Origin: Caballeronia sp. SBC1
GTDB lineage: Bacteria; Pseudomonadota; Gammaproteobacteria; Burkholderiales; Burkholderiaceae
DNA length: 64,000 nucleotides
NCBI RefSeq assembly: GCF_011493005.1
Contig: NZ_CP049156.1
Span: 2,542,001-2,606,000, forward strand
Direction: 5' to 3'
Numbering within the stretch: position 1 is the stretch's first letter; each line of letters starts with the position of its first letter. Made by a program: the position numbers and the translations under genes. The notes under the pieces were generated by a model. The model saw only the letters and a list, made by a program, of their open reading frames with translations. It did not search any database and was not told where the DNA came from. Positions 24,131 through 57,233 of the stretch are shown here, one piece after another.

Positions 24131-24215
24131 TGGTGCCGACGGCGAGACTCGAACTCGCACAGCTTTCGCCACTACCCCCTCAAGATAGCGTGTCTACCAA
24201 TTTCACCACGTCGGC
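24131..24215 (-). tRNA. tRNA-Leu (GAG)
   Basis: 85 bases including an encoded CCA end. The acceptor stem GCCGACG pairs with CGTCGGC. The anticodon stem CTATC/GGTAG encloses loop TTGAGGG, giving anticodon GAG. The long variable arm of class II tRNAs is present, and the T-arm contains GTTCGAGTC. It reads CUC and CUU leucine codons. It lies between secG and nuoA on the same strand. Confidence 0.95.
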
Positions 24216-33116: not shown

Positions 33117-33212
33117 CAAGCCGCACTCGCTACCCAATCTCACGTTGCCAACCTTCACCGTGCGATGCGTTTCCTGGCATCGCATGCTCCAACTCGCGCT
33201 CAAAAAAAGCTC

Positions 33213-34781
33213 ATGACCCTACGTGAAACGTTCGCAACCTTCCCGCGTGATCTCTTCGCGGGCACCGTCGTCTTTCTTGTCGCGATGCCGCTGTGTCTCG
33301 GCATCGCCAACGCATCCGGCGTCGAACCATTTGCCGGCTTGCTGTCGGGCATTATCGGCGGGCTGGTCGTTGCGCTGCTCAGCGGCTCGCACTTGAGCGT
33401 GAGCGGGCCGGCGGCGGGACTGGTCGTCATCGTCGTTGATGGCATTGCCAAGCTCGGCAGTTTTTCGACCTTCCTGATGGCCGTGATGCTCGCGGGCGTG
33501 ATCCAGTTCGGCTTCGGCATGCTGAGGGCCGGACGCTTCGCCGCATACGTGCCGTCGTCGGTTATCAAGGGCATGCTCGCCGCCATTGGCTTGTTGCTGA
33601 TCATCAAGCAGGTGCCGCTTGCCGCTGGTTTTGCCAACGGCGGCGCTCACATCGCCGCGCAAACCGCCGGCACACTCGACACGCCGTTCGGCGCGATGTC
33701 CCTCGCGGCGTGCGCCGTCGCCGCGCTGTCCATCGCCATTCTGGCTGGCTGGGAAACGAAGGCAATGCGCCGCTTTGCGTTGGTGCGCGCGCTGCCCGCT
33801 CCGCTCGCGGTAGTCATCCTCGGTATTGCGATTACGCTGGCGCTCGACTTCGCCGCGCCCGGCTTCGCACCGCCAGCGGAGCATCGCGTGCTGTTGCCGT
33901 CACTGGCTTCGTTCGCGGCGTTGAACGCCGCATTCGACTGGCCGGCCTTCGCGCAACTCGTCAATCCAGATGTCTGGCGGCTCGCGACGACGCTTGCCAT
34001 CGTCGCAAGCCTGGAGACCTTGCTAAGCCTCGAAGCGGTTGAACAGATCGATCCGAAGAAGCGCACCGCTCACCCGGACCGGGAACTCAAGGCGCAGGGT
34101 ATCGGCAATATGATGGCGGGCGCGATCGGTGCGTTGCCGATCACATCGGTCATTGTGCGAAGTTCCGCCAATGTGCACGCGGGCGCGCAGAGCCGCTGGT
34201 CGGCCGTCATACACGGCGTCTTGCTGCTCGCGAGCGTCTTCGCGCTGACGGCCGTGATCAATTTGATTCCGCTCGCCTGTCTCGCCGCGATCCTGATTTT
34301 CACAGGACTGAAGCTGGCGAAACCGTCGCTGTTTACAGCCGTTGCAAGGCAGGGATTCGAACGCTTTGCGCCGTTTATCGTGACAATTGTGGGCGTGCTG
34401 ACGACCGATCTGCTGATCGGCATTCTGCTGGGTATTGCATGCAGTATCGGGCTCGCGATTCACGCGAATCTGCAGCGCCCTATCACCATCGCGCAGCATG
34501 ACGACCACTTCCTGCTGTCGTTTCGCAAGGACGTGTCGTTTCTCGGCAAGGTGTCGCTCAAGCACCACCTGAGGCAAATTCCGGACAACGCAACGGTGAT
34601 CGTGGATGCGAGCCGTGCGGATTTCGTCGATCCCGACGTGCGCGAAGTAATCGATAAATTCGTCGCCGATGCCCCCGCGCGCGGCATTCATGTGGAATGC
34701 CGACAGCTTGAACGCACAGCGCGCGAACGGCCGAGTTTGCAGCAGCGCATGGCGTTTTTCAAACGGGCGCCGGTGAAATAA
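33213..34781 (+). CDS. SulP family inorganic anion transporter
   Basis: 522-residue membrane transporter with 10-12 helices and a C-terminal STAS domain (about residues 430-515, DNATVIVDASRADFVDPDVREVIDKF). Transporter landmarks include FLVAMPLCLGIANASGVEPFAGLLSGIIGG and SGPAAGLVVIVVDG. SulP proteins carry sulfate, bicarbonate or dicarboxylates; those beside or fused to carbonic anhydrases are usually bicarbonate carriers, which fits the upstream gene. The start is uncertain: ATG 33213 gives the family N-terminus (MTLRETFATFPRDLFAG), while ATG 33165 would add 16 residues; neither has a clear ribosome site. Confidence 0.9.
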   Translation: MTLRETFATFPRDLFAGTVVFLVAMPLCLGIANASGVEPFAGLLSGIIGGLVVALLSGSHLSVSGPAAGLVVIVVDGIAKLGSFSTFLMAVMLAGVIQFGFGMLRAGRFAAYVPSSVIKGMLAAIGLLLIIKQVPLAAGFANGGAHIAAQTAGTLDTPFGAMSLAACAVAALSIAILAGWETKAMRRFALVRALPAPLAVVILGIAITLALDFAAPGFAPPAEHRVLLPSLASFAALNAAFDWPAFAQLVNPDVWRLATTLAIVASLETLLSLEAVEQIDPKKRTAHPDRELKAQGIGNMMAGAIGALPITSVIVRSSANVHAGAQSRWSAVIHGVLLLASVFALTAVINLIPLACLAAILIFTGLKLAKPSLFTAVARQGFERFAPFIVTIVGVLTTDLLIGILLGIACSIGLAIHANLQRPITIAQHDDHFLLSFRKDVSFLGKVSLKHHLRQIPDNATVIVDASRADFVDPDVREVIDKFVADAPARGIHVECRQLERTARERPSLQQRMAFFKRAPVK

Positions 34782-34796
34782 AGCTGCAATGAAAAA

Positions 34797-34822
34797 CAGC
34801 CCTCGCTTTTGGCGAGGGCCGT
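34797..34822. terminator. Bidirectional terminator between SulP gene and leuA
   Basis: GCCCTCGC, loop TTTTG, GCGAGGGC, followed by CGTTTTT on the + strand and by TGTTTTT on the - strand. It lies between the two convergent genes and can serve both. Confidence 0.9.
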
Positions 34823-34892: not shown

Positions 34893-36443
34893 TCAAATTG
34901 AGGAAAGCTGCGGATTCAGCTTTTCAACCTTCGAATGCAGCTTGTTCAGCGCCGCGAGATACGCCTTCGCCGATGCCGCCACAATGTCCGGGTCCGTGCC
35001 CACGCCGTTCACGATCCGGCCGCTCTTCGACAAACGCACGGTCACTTCGCCCTGAGCCTGCGTGCCCGTGGTAATCGCGTTCACCGAATACAACACCAGC
35101 TCGGCGCCGCTCGTCACCTTCGATTCGATCGCGTGCAGCGTGGCATCGACCGGACCGTTACCACGCGATTCACCCTGCACTTCAATGCCGTCGACAGCGA
35201 ACACCACGCGTGCATGCGGCTGCTCGCCCGTTTCCGAGTGCTGAGCCAGCGACACGAAGCGGAACGTTTCCTTCGCCTGCATTTCCGCCGATTCTTCGGA
35301 GACGATCGCCATGATGTCTTCGTCGAAGATCTCGGATTTACGATCGGCGAGCTCCTTGAAGCGCACGAACGCGGCGTTCACATCCGTTTCCGATTCCAGC
35401 GTCACGCCGAGATCTTCCAGGCGCTGCTTGAACGCGTTACGACCCGACAACTTGCCGAGCACGATCTTGTTGGTCGACCAGCCCACGTCTTCGGCACGCA
35501 TGATTTCGTAGGTATCGCGCGCTTTGAGCACGCCATCCTGGTGAATCCCGGACGCGTGCGCAAACGCGTTCGCGCCCACAACAGCCTTGTTCGGCTGCAC
35601 GACAAAGCCGGTGATCTGCGAGACGAGCTTCGACGTTGGCACAATATGCGTTGTATCGATACCGAGTTCCAGCCCGTAGTAATCCTTGCGCGTTTTCATC
35701 GCCATCACGACTTCTTCGAGCGCCGTGTTGCCTGCGCGCTCGCCCAGACCGTTGATGGTGCATTCGATCTGACGCGCGCCGCCGATGTGCACGCCGGCCA
35801 GTGAATTCGCCACCGCCATGCCGAGGTCATCGTGGCAATGCACGGACCACACCGCCTTGTCCGAATTCGGCACGCGTTCACGGATGGTCTTGATCAGGTT
35901 GCCATAGCCTTCCGGCACGGCGTAACCGACCGTATCGGGAATATTGATGATGGTTGCGCCTTCATCGATCACCGCTTCCAAAACCCTGCACAGGAAATCG
36001 AGGTCCGAACGGCTGCCGTCTTCCGGCGAGAACTCGACGTCGTCGGTGAACTTACGCGCGAAACGCGTAGCGAGACGCGCCTGTTCGTAGACCTGATCCG
36101 CGCTCATGCGCAGCTTCTTTTCCATATGCAGCGCCGACGTGGCAATGAACGTATGGATGCGGAAGTGATCGGCGGGCTTCAGGGCATCGGCGGCGCGCTG
36201 GATGTCCTTATCGTTGGCGCGGGCAAGCGAACAGATCGTGCTGTCCTTGATCAAGCCTGCAATGGTGTGGATCGCATCGAAATCACCGTTCGAGCTGGCC
36301 GCGAAGCCTGCTTCGATCACATCGACTTTCATCCGTTCGAGCGCCTTCGCGATCCGGATCTTCTCTTCCTTTGTCATCGACGCGCCGGGGGACTGCTCGC
36401 CATCGCGCAAGGTCGTGTCGAAAATGATCAGTTTGTCTGCCAT
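34893..36443 (-). CDS. leuA: 2-isopropylmalate synthase
   Basis: 516-residue enzyme condensing acetyl-CoA with 2-oxoisovalerate, the first step committed to leucine. The catalytic TIM barrel carries [13 protein letters not shown] (residues 8-20), the metal-binding [14 protein letters not shown] and [12 protein letters not shown]; the C-terminal regulatory domain (about residues 390-510) is where leucine inhibits. It is preceded by a 216-base leader with its own promoter and a Leu-rich leader frame. It is the last gene of the ilv-psd-pss-leuA cluster but separated from pssA by a terminator. Confidence 0.97.
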
Positions 36444-36572
36444 GTCGGGCTCCAGTGGGGAGTTTTAGAGTTTTGAAAACGGTGGGGAAAAACGAAAAAC
36501 AATACGGAATCCGGGTGTTCGCGCCACCGCTGGCGTCGAAAACCACGAACGAGCAGACGGAAGGCGGGAAGC
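36444..36572 (-). promoter_or_regulatory. leuA leader RNA with alternative pairings
   Basis: This stretch lies between the leader frame and leuA. On the - strand CGCCA (36535-36531) and TGGCG (36526-36522) form a hairpin, extended outward to about 36517-36543. A T-rich stretch (about 36504-36488) follows some 12 bases later. The GGCGCG of the hairpin can instead pair with CGCGCC at the end of the leader frame, and its CGGTGG can pair with CCACCG about 40 bases downstream (followed by TTTT). These exclude one another, as in attenuators. The exact terminator is unclear. Confidence 0.45.
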
Positions 36573-36659
36573 TTAGCGCGGCAGGCGCGCTAGTAGCGGT
36601 AGCGCGCGTAGCGGCGCACCAGCTAGGAAAAACGAGAGGGGATGGGCGAAAAAAATCAT
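36573..36659 (-). CDS. Candidate leaderless leucine leader peptide for leuA
   Basis: 28-codon frame on the - strand, ATG at 36659 and TAA at 36573, ending 129 bases before leuA. Seven codons are leucine: CTC at 8, CTA at 12, 17, 20, 22 and 23, CTG at 26. CTA is rare in high-GC genomes, so five in 28 is striking. The upstream promoter places transcription start on the A of this ATG, so the mRNA would be leaderless and no ribosome site exists. An 8-bp stem (GCGCGCTA/TAGCGCGC, 36585-36607) covers the leucine codons. I infer transcription attenuation by leucyl-tRNA supply; no expression evidence is available. Confidence 0.7.
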   Translation of the reverse strand: MIFFAHPLSFFLAGAPLRALPLLARLPR

Positions 36660-36665
36660 TTGCAG

Positions 36666-36694
36666 ACTATAACGAGATTTTTGGGAGCGTGCAA
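36666..36694 (-). promoter_or_regulatory. leuA promoter
   Basis: On the - strand TTGCAC (36694-36689), a 17-bp spacer and TATAGT (36671-36666) form a near-consensus sigma-70 promoter. Six bases after the -10 comes the ATG of the candidate leader peptide, so the predicted start site and start codon coincide. Confidence 0.8.
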
Positions 36695-36756
36695 TTAGGC
36701 TTTCCGATCGGGGTTATTGACGCCACCCGCAAGGTTTGCCGCCATAACAGCCCAAA

Positions 36757-36795
36757 AGCAAAAAGCGCGCATCGGCTTCAAACCGATGCGCGCTG
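36757..36795 (-). terminator. Terminator after pssA
   Basis: On the - strand AGCGCGCATCGG, loop TTTGAAG and CCGATGCGCGCT form a 12-bp stem followed by TTTTGCTTTT. It begins 6 bp after the pssA stop. Confidence 0.93.
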
Positions 36796-36800
36796 TGCTT

Positions 36801-37667
36801 TCAATGCGCTTTTTCAGACGATCTGGCCGGATTCGGCCGGCCGCGAATGGCCATGTACCCCCACCACGCATAACCGGAAAAACCGTACAGCACGAACAAG
36901 CCGAACAACATCAAAGGCGGATCCGACGACACCAGCACAAATGCGACCACCACCAGCAACACGCCAGCGAACGGCACGCGGAACCGCACATCGAGCGCCT
37001 TGCCGCTGTAGAACGGTGCGTTTGACACCATCGTGACACCGGCATAGATGGTCAGCGCAAATGCCACCCACGGCAGCCAGACCAGCTTCAGCGGCACGCG
37101 GTTATCGGTGGCGAGCCACACGAAGCCCGCGATCAACGCCGCCGCTGCCGGGCTCGGCAGGCCCTGGAAATAACGCTTGTCCACTACGCCTACGTTCGTA
37201 TTGAAGCGCGCGAGCCGCAATGCCGCCCCCGAGCAATAGACGAACGCCGCGAGCCAGCCCCAGCGGCCCAGGTCCTTCAGGATCCATTCGTACATCACCA
37301 GCGCGGGTGCCACGCCGAACGAGACCATGTCGGAGAGGCTGTCGAACTGCTCGCCGAACGCGCTCTGCGTATGCGTCATGCGCGCGACACGGCCGTCCAT
37401 GCCGTCCAGCACCATTGCCACGAAGATCGCGATAGCCGCGATCTCGAAGCGCACGTTCATGGCCTGCACGACCGCGAAAAAGCCGCAAAACAACGCAGCC
37501 GTGGTGAACGCGTTGGGCAGCAAATAAATGCCGCGCTTCCTCAAAAACTGTTGCCGCTTCGCGCGCCGCGTTTCCAGCACGCCAATGTCCTGCGTCGCCT
37601 TATTGCGGCGAAATGCCCGCGGGGGTGTTGTCGTGCTTCGCGTCCGGCGCGGTTTGAGTGCCGCCAT
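36801..37667 (-). CDS. pssA: CDP-diacylglycerol-serine O-phosphatidyltransferase
   Basis: 288-residue membrane enzyme making phosphatidylserine from CDP-diacylglycerol and serine. The CDP-alcohol phosphotransferase motif DG(x)2AR(x)8G(x)3D(x)3D is present as DGRVAR, eight residues, GEQFDSLSD (about residues 91-113). About eight hydrophobic helices; a basic N-terminal extension of some 40 residues precedes the first. ACGGAGGACTCG precedes the ATG. It lies 47 bp after psd, so the two phosphatidylethanolamine genes are co-transcribed. Confidence 0.95.
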   Translation of the reverse strand: MAALKPRRTRSTTTPPRAFRRNKATQDIGVLETRRAKRQQFLRKRGIYLLPNAFTTAALFCGFFAVVQAMNVRFEIAAIAIFVAMVLDGMDGRVARMTHTQSAFGEQFDSLSDMVSFGVAPALVMYEWILKDLGRWGWLAAFVYCSGAALRLARFNTNVGVVDKRYFQGLPSPAAAALIAGFVWLATDNRVPLKLVWLPWVAFALTIYAGVTMVSNAPFYSGKALDVRFRVPFAGVLLVVVAFVLVSSDPPLMLFGLFVLYGFSGYAWWGYMAIRGRPNPARSSEKAH

Positions 37668-41950: not shown

Positions 41951-42097
41951 ACATTCACCTTTCGAATTTTCGGCAAAAAATTGATTGGGTGCTCTCTGCC
42001 GGGCTTATGGCTCGGGTTCAAGCGGCGCGTCTAAATGGGAAGCGGGCTTCTTGGGCTCGCCTCAAAGAGACAGTTCACTTTATGATGCGAGTCGGAA

Positions 42098-42127
42098 ACA
42101 ATAGCCCGAGGCAATAAAGCTCGTCAA
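42098..42127 (-). promoter_or_regulatory. Candidate ilvI promoter
   Basis: On the - strand TTGACG (42127-42122), an 18-bp spacer and TATTGT (42103-42098) resemble a sigma-70 promoter. It would leave a leader of about 140 bases before ilvI. I found no convincing branched-chain leader peptide in it. Confidence 0.55.
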
Positions 42128-42334
42128 GGAAAAACTGCACAATACCCCCTGAAGTGCACCAGAATCGAGCCCTAAAGGCTCGGATTTATCTGAAATACTG
42201 AAGAAAACTCTTTGTTTCAGGCTGTAACGGCGGCGCATTTCCTCGCTGTTCACTCAAAAGTTTGCTAGCATCCGCAGGTTTTAAACCTCTCACCAACCCT
42301 TATCGACGCACGCTCGTTGCGCCGGGCCTCACGG
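42128..42334. other. Intergenic region upstream of the sigma factor gene
   Basis: Together with 41951-42127 this makes a 384-bp divergent gap between ilvI and the sigma factor gene. I see a -10-like TAGCAT near 42267 but no matching -35 of either sigma-70 or a clear ECF type, so the sigma factor promoter is not assigned. Confidence 0.4.
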
Positions 42335-57159: not shown

Positions 57160-57233
57160 AAAACGGGGCCGTCCCCGATGTGACTGAGGCGCGCAAGGTC
57201 GTCCATGCGGCACGTAATAGAAGTGTAATTATA
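57160..57233 (-). promoter_or_regulatory. Guanidine-II (mini-ykkC) riboswitch and promoter -10 of sugE
   Basis: On the - strand the leader has two stem-loops with ACGR tetraloops: GCATGG-ACGA-CCTTGC (57208-57193) and CGGGG-ACGG-CCCCG (57177-57164), then TTTTTT and the ribosome site of sugE. Paired hairpins with ACGR loops are the diagnostic guanidine-II architecture, in which two guanidinium ions dock the loops and free the ribosome site. A TATAAT at 57233-57228 would start transcription near 57221, just before the first hairpin; its -35 is weak. Confidence 0.88.

Follow-up and report, generated by a model that had tools for sequence, protein, structure and literature searches.

A conserved and probably leaderless leucine-rich leader frame upstream of leuA in Caballeronia and its relatives

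Among the closest described systems to the element reported here is leuL of E. coli and Salmonella (Rfam RF00512, Leu_leader), with which it shares a leucine-rich leader upstream of leuA, rare CTA control codons and a terminator-like hairpin. The E. coli frame, in which four CTA codons stand in a row, is preceded by a 5' leader with a Shine-Dalgarno sequence, ctggag, whereas our locus has a -10 promoter box at that place and encodes a different peptide. In Salmonella, replacement of three CUA codons by CUG made the system less sensitive (Carter et al., as recounted in an excerpt of PMC1183508). A leader peptide beginning with the first base of the transcript, as predicted for our locus, is described for another proteobacterial attenuator, rnTrpL/peTrpL of S. 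meliloti, in the excerpted text of PMC10117765; that system differs in its amino acid (tryptophan), its gene (trpE) and its host (an alphaproteobacterium), and functions of its RNA and peptide beyond attenuation are reported in the same excerpt.

Leaderless leucine leaders have also been described in Actinobacteria. LeuL1 of Streptomyces lividans, as presented in part of PMC8079986, is leucine-rich and leaderless, is by context located upstream of leuA and lacks a typical Rho-independent terminator; the first three properties are shared by our locus, where leaderlessness is a prediction. Many betaproteobacterial relatives of our locus, unlike these actinobacterial leaders, have canonical terminators. 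The actinobacterial LEU element is distinguished by a predicted pseudoknot in which the Leu run pairs with the leuA Shine-Dalgarno sequence (excerpt of PMC1262725), an arrangement that we did not find here: no pairing of this type was among the 30 helices listed for our sequence. For C. diphtheriae, a leu leader with an unmapped start is given in a portion of PMC5784534.

Within the literature searched, the element is a known mechanism in a format new for its group. None of the matches listed describes a leaderless leader peptide, or an attenuator responding to leucine, from Burkholderia or other Betaproteobacteria. Of these matches, PMC2965389, in its excerpt, names Burkholderia for a transposon only and PMC6123439, likewise in excerpt, treats attenuators of branched-chain amino acid genes across Gram-negative species in general terms; Vitreschak et al. 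2004, cited for proteobacterial attenuators in the excerpt of PMC1262725, lay outside the scope of these searches.

Here we present an analysis of a 64,000-nucleotide stretch of the Caballeronia sp. SBC1 chromosome (NZ_CP049156.1, positions 2,542,001 to 2,606,000), referred to as the window, in which a short leucine-rich frame precedes leuA. From its sequence and that of its relatives, we consider it highly probable that this frame is a leaderless leader peptide through which leucine-sensing, ribosome-mediated attenuation of leuA is exerted. The features of the locus are as follows, with matches as defined below.

34893..36443, minus strand: leuA, 2-isopropylmalate synthase, the presumed regulated gene (TIGR00973, 705.1 bits against a cut-off of 598.7)
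36450..36454, minus strand: leuA Shine-Dalgarno sequence, TGGAG
36488..36509, minus strand: imperfect T-rich tail after the hairpin, TTCCGTATTGTTTTTCGTTTTT
36510..36549, minus strand: imperfect terminator-like hairpin, conserved, -19.8 kcal/mol (core in 86 of 90 clade sequences)
36573..36659, minus strand: leader peptide frame, 28 codons and stop, predicted to be leaderless, with conserved Leu codons 17, 20, 22, 23 and 26
36574..36592, minus strand: short hairpin spanning the final codons of the leader and its stop, TAGCGCG/CGCGCTA
36614..36623, minus strand: conserved leader segment GCTGGTGCGC, codons 13-16
36666..36671, minus strand: -10 hexamer TATAGT, six bases ahead of the ATG, by direct reading (TATAGT in 113 of 170 matches)
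36689..36694, minus strand: -35 hexamer TTGCAC, by direct reading (TTGCAC in 63 and TTGCGC in 46 of 170 matches)
36764..36794, minus strand: intrinsic terminator of the upstream gene pssA, a 14-bp stem followed by TTTTGCTTTT, from the terminator scan

The genes on the minus strand run ilvB, ilvN, ilvC, psd, pssA, leuA. NCBIfam models confirmed the identities of ilvB, pssA and leuA; the names ilvN, ilvC and psd are those we presume from gene order and length. The pssA terminator, the sole match in a terminator scan of 36400-36850, probably insulates the leuA unit. On direct reading, TTGCAC is followed after 17 nucleotides by TATAGT and after six further bases by the ATG at 36659, and the frame reads MIFFAHPLSFFLAGAPLRALPLLARLPR before its stop codon, with seven leucines encoded by CTC at codon 8, by CTA at codons 12, 17, 20, 22 and 23, and by CTG at codon 26. 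This agrees exactly with the first-pass annotation of the locus, both in the TATAGT box six bases before the ATG and in the counts of 28 codons, seven leucines and five CTA codons at those positions. The same annotation had called the promoter near-consensus, and here the boxes and their 17-nucleotide spacing stood but the epithet proved generous: TTGCAC agrees with TTGACA at three of six positions, and a scan of 36400-36850 with the promoter consensus reported no promoter. The pattern of promoter and ATG, with up to three mismatches allowed, occurs once in the window, with zero mismatches, against an average of 0.48 in shuffled sequences, and the window's boxes are kept by its relatives, 109 of the 170 matches having TTGCAC or TTGCGC in addition to the TATAGT counts above.

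Attenuation elsewhere also targets ilvB; the long intergenic stretch before this gene (41951-42180, minus strand), read by eye, contains no leaderless frame comparable to that of leuA. A pattern search for a leaderless Trp leader in the window's genome gave one match against two for the reversed control, and hence no evidence for such a leader.

Searches of the family databases returned no name for the element. No Rfam family, RF00512 included, reached its gathering score over the leader; the interval 36400-36720 gave only two chance-level matches (E of at least 2), and no leader-like family emerged from eight additional relatives. At locus L081, weak hits to RF02867 and RF00512 were set aside, their deduced position being beyond the other end of leuA. 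NCBIfam held no family for the peptide at E 0.001, and viral contigs scanned with LeuA gave 12 pattern matches, none of them a relative. Elsewhere in the window, a Guanidine-II (mini-ykkC) riboswitch was identified at 57164-57210 (minus strand; 39.9 bits, above the gathering score) and a tRNA gene at 24134-24215 (minus strand; RF00005, 50.1 bits). A terminator-like hairpin lies at 34797-34819, between leuA and the convergent gene 33165-34781, and sub-threshold Rfam matches at that position are probably due to chance.

For the comparison with relatives, LeuA loci were collected from named genomes (80 loci) and, for the rest, from whole genomes of the window's genus and family; of 132 places listed, 30 came as loci, and 80 more were added. 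At each locus the LeuA start was located and up to 420 bases upstream were taken, so that 250 loci and the window yielded 241 upstream sequences, 226 of them distinct, after four distant LeuA paralogues (L082-L085) and six stretches without a LeuA start (L130, L132, L144-L147) were left out. An upstream was counted as a match if it contained a frame beginning with ATG, 12-45 codons long and with four or more Leu codons, and a TAnnnT box ending 5-8 bases ahead of the ATG. This rule was satisfied by 170 of the 226 distinct upstreams, against 38 of 2260 dinucleotide-shuffled sequences; when the box had to be TATANT and frames could reach 46 codons, the counts were 138 of 226 and 0 of 2260. Two of the 170 matches (L163 and L234) lack a Leu cluster and seem to be chance matches, and 56 upstreams are without the element under the rule, among them four of 14 in genus g20 and three from named Paraburkholderia. 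The sample is rich in near relatives, the 90 sequences of the window's own clade having an effective number of 27. Since that clade was picked by the C-terminal residues of the leader, the C-terminus its members share is partly a matter of construction. Their leaders have 26-32 codons in one frame, and the distance from stop codon to leuA falls in all three frames.

A lack of conservation in relatives, named by the first-pass annotation as grounds for abandoning its reading, is therefore not what we observed: a short, leucine-rich frame is retained upstream of a gene of the leucine pathway, as is characteristic of attenuators. That the frame stands by chance behind an ordinary leuA promoter can be given almost no credence. 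Seven leucines in 28 codons have by themselves a probability of about 0.009, so the weight is carried by codon choice and conservation, and it is the conservation of the frame, along with its use of CTA, that refutes this account. We conclude that the leuA leader is a genuine regulatory element, conserved among relatives, for which neither Rfam nor NCBIfam has a family.

In the 170 matches, 591 of the 1086 Leu codons in leaders (54%) are CTA. By comparison, CTA accounts for four of 275 (1.5%) in eight genes of the window and for 18 of 2931 (0.6%) in the leuA genes of the 80 named-genome loci; at the local share of 1.5%, at least five CTA codons among seven would be expected with a probability of about 1e-8. 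The 42 distinct leaders of 28 codons allow a comparison by position. All 42 have CTA at codons 17 and 20 and a Leu codon at 22, 23 and 26; at position 23 this is CTA in 40 and CTG in two. Codon 12, which reads CTA in the window, does so in 15 of the 42 and encodes Leu in just 16, and for this reason is probably not a control codon; from the positional conservation of Leu and CTA, the control region probably comprises codons 17-26. The preference for CTA is not universal, since in a sample of the window's order with one genome per family CTG accounts for 83 of 145 leader Leu codons and CTA for 12.

In sigma-70 promoters, a -10 box 6-7 bases before an ATG implies that transcription begins with the A of that ATG or one base away from it. 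The distance in the 170 matches is six bases in 82, seven in 84 and eight in four. As the rule itself demands a box 5-8 bases away, the test was repeated with frames chosen by Leu clustering alone. This gave 158 frames in the 226 upstreams, with the nearest TATANT at six bases in 61 and at seven in 48 (109 of 158 together), at eight in two, at nine in one and elsewhere within 60 bases in seven (at 13 in four of these); the remaining 39 have no TATANT within 60 nucleotides, many of them having weaker -10 boxes. A Shine-Dalgarno-like 4-mer precedes the leader ATG in one of the 158 frames, against 218 of 226 leuA starts. The absence of a Shine-Dalgarno sequence before the leader AUG, a property of leaderless leaders of the rnTrpL type, is thus found here as well. 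Farther afield, 28 frames of the order sample have the box at 6-9 bases in 21 cases, at other distances in three and not at all in four, and 17 frames of a class sample have it at 6-7 bases in four, elsewhere in four and not at all in nine; neither sample contains a Shine-Dalgarno-like 4-mer. From this geometry, the start codon of the window's leader probably forms the first letters of the mRNA. As to published leuA 5' ends, the main texts of two B. cenocepacia dRNA-seq studies, to the extent available (PMC4603805, PMC5688073), mention neither leu genes nor isopropylmalate, and that of a C. metallidurans study (PMC7563307, likewise in part) does not name leuA, although entries under locus tags are possible in all three.

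The first-pass annotation had placed the element in Burkholderiaceae, where it does occur, but to which it is not confined. In the window's order, 113 genomes gave a match, of which 40 were taken, one per family; a single upstream from each satisfied the strict rule in 21 of the 40 (9 of 400 shuffles) and, with the distance widened to 5-15 bases, in 28 (18 of 400 shuffles). In the class, where 84 genomes matched and 20 were taken, each from a further family, single upstreams gave eight strict matches, against six in 200 shuffles. Within the family, genera are denoted by g-labels, g1 including at least two Caballeronia, g11 Burkholderia and g3 Cupriavidus. Genera other than the window's own carried the element at 71 of 94 loci: g11 at 14 of 14, g25 at 11 of 11, g3 and g24 at 10 of 10 each, g13 at three of three, g5 and g7 at one of one each, g20 at 10 of 14, g12 at seven of eight, g10 at three of eight, g8 at one of eight, and g16, g17, g18 and g23 together at none of six, with the chance-like L163 counted within g20 and L234 within g10.

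Several of the misses retain part of the element. The promoter is kept, with no long Leu frame, at three loci named Paraburkholderia (L003, L005, L006) and three of g20 (L162, L172, L176), and two g8 loci (L214, L217) have the promoter and, 13 bases beyond the box, an ATG frame that contains Leu codons. For the window's genus, the 56 first leuA copies comprise 47 matches, seven misses and two without a LeuA start in the stretch. All seven misses (L098, L134-L137, L139, L140) come from genomes of 2.8-4.2 Mb, and first-copy matches from genomes of 5.1 Mb or more, which suggests that the attenuator was lost with genome reduction. Of the four misses that were read, two have a broken frame (L098, L136), one has lost the start (L134) and one has the frame with an altered -10 box (L135). 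Such absences and broken frames speak against a universal need for the element, and are the pattern that relaxed selection would leave. Second, shorter copies of LeuA were seen in eight genomes of the genus (G002, G004, G008, G016, G018, G020, G023, G034; open frames of 420-446 codons, 73-78% identical), and none of these eight gave a match, four being misses and four lacking a start. In Variovorax and Polaromonas (L041, L053, L056, L058, L066, L072), the frame before leuA resembles by eye the C-terminal domain of another LeuA and looks like a tandem LeuA-like gene.

How the leader might act on transcription can be read most clearly in relatives outside the window's clade. The region between leader and leuA was surveyed for terminators in 23 Cupriavidus-type sequences, a mixed set of nine, 25 of 42 sequences from other named Betaproteobacteria and 26 of the 90 in the window's clade. 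A strong hairpin followed by a T-run was present in all 23 Cupriavidus-type sequences (Cupriavidus, g3, g24, g5), in 24 of the 25 sampled from other named Betaproteobacteria, mostly Comamonadaceae, and in seven of the mixed set, all belonging to g12, a genus of small genomes; in L022 and L034, the latter labelled Polynucleobacter, the leader frame is present and the terminator was looked for and not found. The 5' arm of the terminator is complementary to the last leader codons, through CACGGGC in Comamonadaceae types, CAGGTCGGG in Cupriavidus types and CTTGGGGC in g12. In these lineages with canonical terminators, at least 63 of 68 sequences have their best leader-arm duplex ending 3-12 bases short of the last base of the stop codon, and in only 29 of the 68 does the duplex outdo 95 or more of 100 shuffles (mean z -1.7). 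When leaders and arms were crossed among 24 Cupriavidus-type, 31 Comamonadaceae-type and six g12 sequences, four of no clear type being excluded, each type of arm paired best on average with its own leaders: -21.9 versus -16.0 and -18.1 kcal/mol for Cupriavidus arms, -13.1 versus -10.4 and -11.5 for Comamonadaceae arms, and -15.8 versus -7.7 and -9.7 for g12 arms. Three terminator sequences matched by three leader sequences are what a terminator/antiterminator switch predicts, and from this complementarity we infer such a switch in the three lineages. A ribosome at the stop codon would cover the leader strand; one that has stalled near the beginning of the Leu run would not necessarily do so.

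The window's own clade behaves differently. Its hairpin at 36549-36510 is conserved, and in 38 of 44 distinct cases the native flanks form a more stable pairing than swapped ones do (-17.1 versus -14.4 kcal/mol; Wilcoxon P 3e-7, with no correction for relatedness). The U-tract behind it has imperfections in the window and is poor in those Burkholderia sequences that were read. The duplex between leader and hairpin arm is no better than in shuffles (87 sequences, mean z -0.85), two of the 87 having at most five of 100 shuffles equally good, and on the window sequence the hairpin forms wherever the ribosome is placed among the six positions modelled, so no switch emerges from the energies alone. 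A classical antiterminator found no support in this clade. As for the first-pass annotation's stem across the leucine codons and its mutually exclusive pairings downstream, they can be drawn, but the downstream hairpin folds at every one of the six positions.

The top covariation score among leader helices, a score without a significance test, belongs to GGTGCGC/GCGCGCT, which joins 36620-36614 to 36607-36601. The segment GCTGGTGCGC can pair over 7 bp with 36607-36601 or, alternatively, with the 5' arm of the downstream hairpin, the roles of the two pairings being conjectural. One consistent scheme for the clade, drawn from modelled energies, would have a ribosome stalled at codons 22-23 mask 36607-36601 and so free GCTGGTG for the 5' arm of the hairpin (-13.4 kcal/mol); a ribosome at the stop codon would let the leader helix form, and the hairpin would then terminate. 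In the window and some close relatives, GCGGTGG can also pair with a downstream CCACCGT before the T's (-13.9 kcal/mol in the window).

Taken as an attenuator, the element would operate as follows. Transcription would start at, or within about one base of, the leader AUG, as the promoter geometry indicates, and a ribosome would load on this 5' AUG without a Shine-Dalgarno sequence and follow the RNA polymerase. With ample leucine, it would pass the CTA codons to the stop, and transcription would end before reaching leuA; with too little charged leucyl-tRNA for CUA, it would stall at codons 17-23 and transcription would continue. In the Cupriavidus-type, g12 and Comamonadaceae-type lineages, the last leader codons could pair with the 5' arm of the canonical terminator. 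In the window's clade, the likely cut-off would be the hairpin 36549-36510 with its weak U-tract, acting either intrinsically or with help from Rho.

Help from Rho is an alternative worth weighing because the flanking RNA is pyrimidine-rich. With the leader and its leucine sensing unchanged, the cut-off in the window's clade might be Rho-dependent, a finished ribosome freeing a C-rich, purine-poor stretch for Rho and a stalled one preventing this. Consistent with this possibility, the Burkholderia sequences examined are without a good intrinsic terminator (L007, L008 and others scored 0), and the start of the leader is pyrimidine-rich, with means of 13.9 C and 4.0 G in 36 bases in the 90 clade sequences, against 11.4 and 6.2 in the 80 other matches. 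The stretch after the stop codon is pyrimidine-rich too, the corresponding means being 13.8 C, 7.7 G and 1.3 A, against 12.0, 7.7 and 9.8. On the other side, G is no lower there than in other lineages, the clade conserves a structured hairpin instead of open RNA, some of its members (L004, L159) have a U-rich tail behind it, and C-richness is no test of Rho use. On balance, we regard a Rho-dependent cut-off as rather unlikely. Control at the level of translation, in which a stalled ribosome would refold the RNA and expose the leuA Shine-Dalgarno sequence, as proposed for the actinobacterial LEU element, is less probable still. Pyrimidine-rich segments of the leader could pair with the GGAG of that sequence, yet these helices measure 4 bp, none of the 30 listed joins the CTA cluster to GGAG, and the relatives with clear switches have intrinsic terminators.

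An action of the peptide in trans, besides or instead of attenuation, has its precedent in Sinorhizobium peTrpL, a leaderless leader peptide with such a role (excerpt of PMC10117765). For our element this seems very improbable: the amino-terminal half of the peptide varies, the peptides of different families share little beyond Leu-rich stretches, and the features that are kept correspond to Leu codons and, in some lineages, to RNA pairing. Attenuation of leuA by a ribosome reading the leader's leucine codons remains our preferred reading.

The findings point to a probable circuit of leucine control in a large group of bacteria, one for which literature searches listed none, and they give a name to short frames ahead of leuA. 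The rare-CTA rule of the enteric leu attenuator is met again in distant bacteria, with CTG dominating the one-per-family sample of the order. The lineages form a natural series in which one sensor is coupled to three different terminator sequences and one clade is without a canonical terminator. It is possible, and we propose it tentatively, that in Betaproteobacteria and in part of the Gammaproteobacteria the leucine attenuator is usually leaderless, that this format is the older one, and that the Shine-Dalgarno-led leuL of E. coli is the derived one. A ribosome would then load once the 5' end leaves the RNA polymerase, setting the race on which attenuation depends, and the element makes it testable whether leaderless initiation has been kept because attenuation needs prompt, synchronised ribosome loading.
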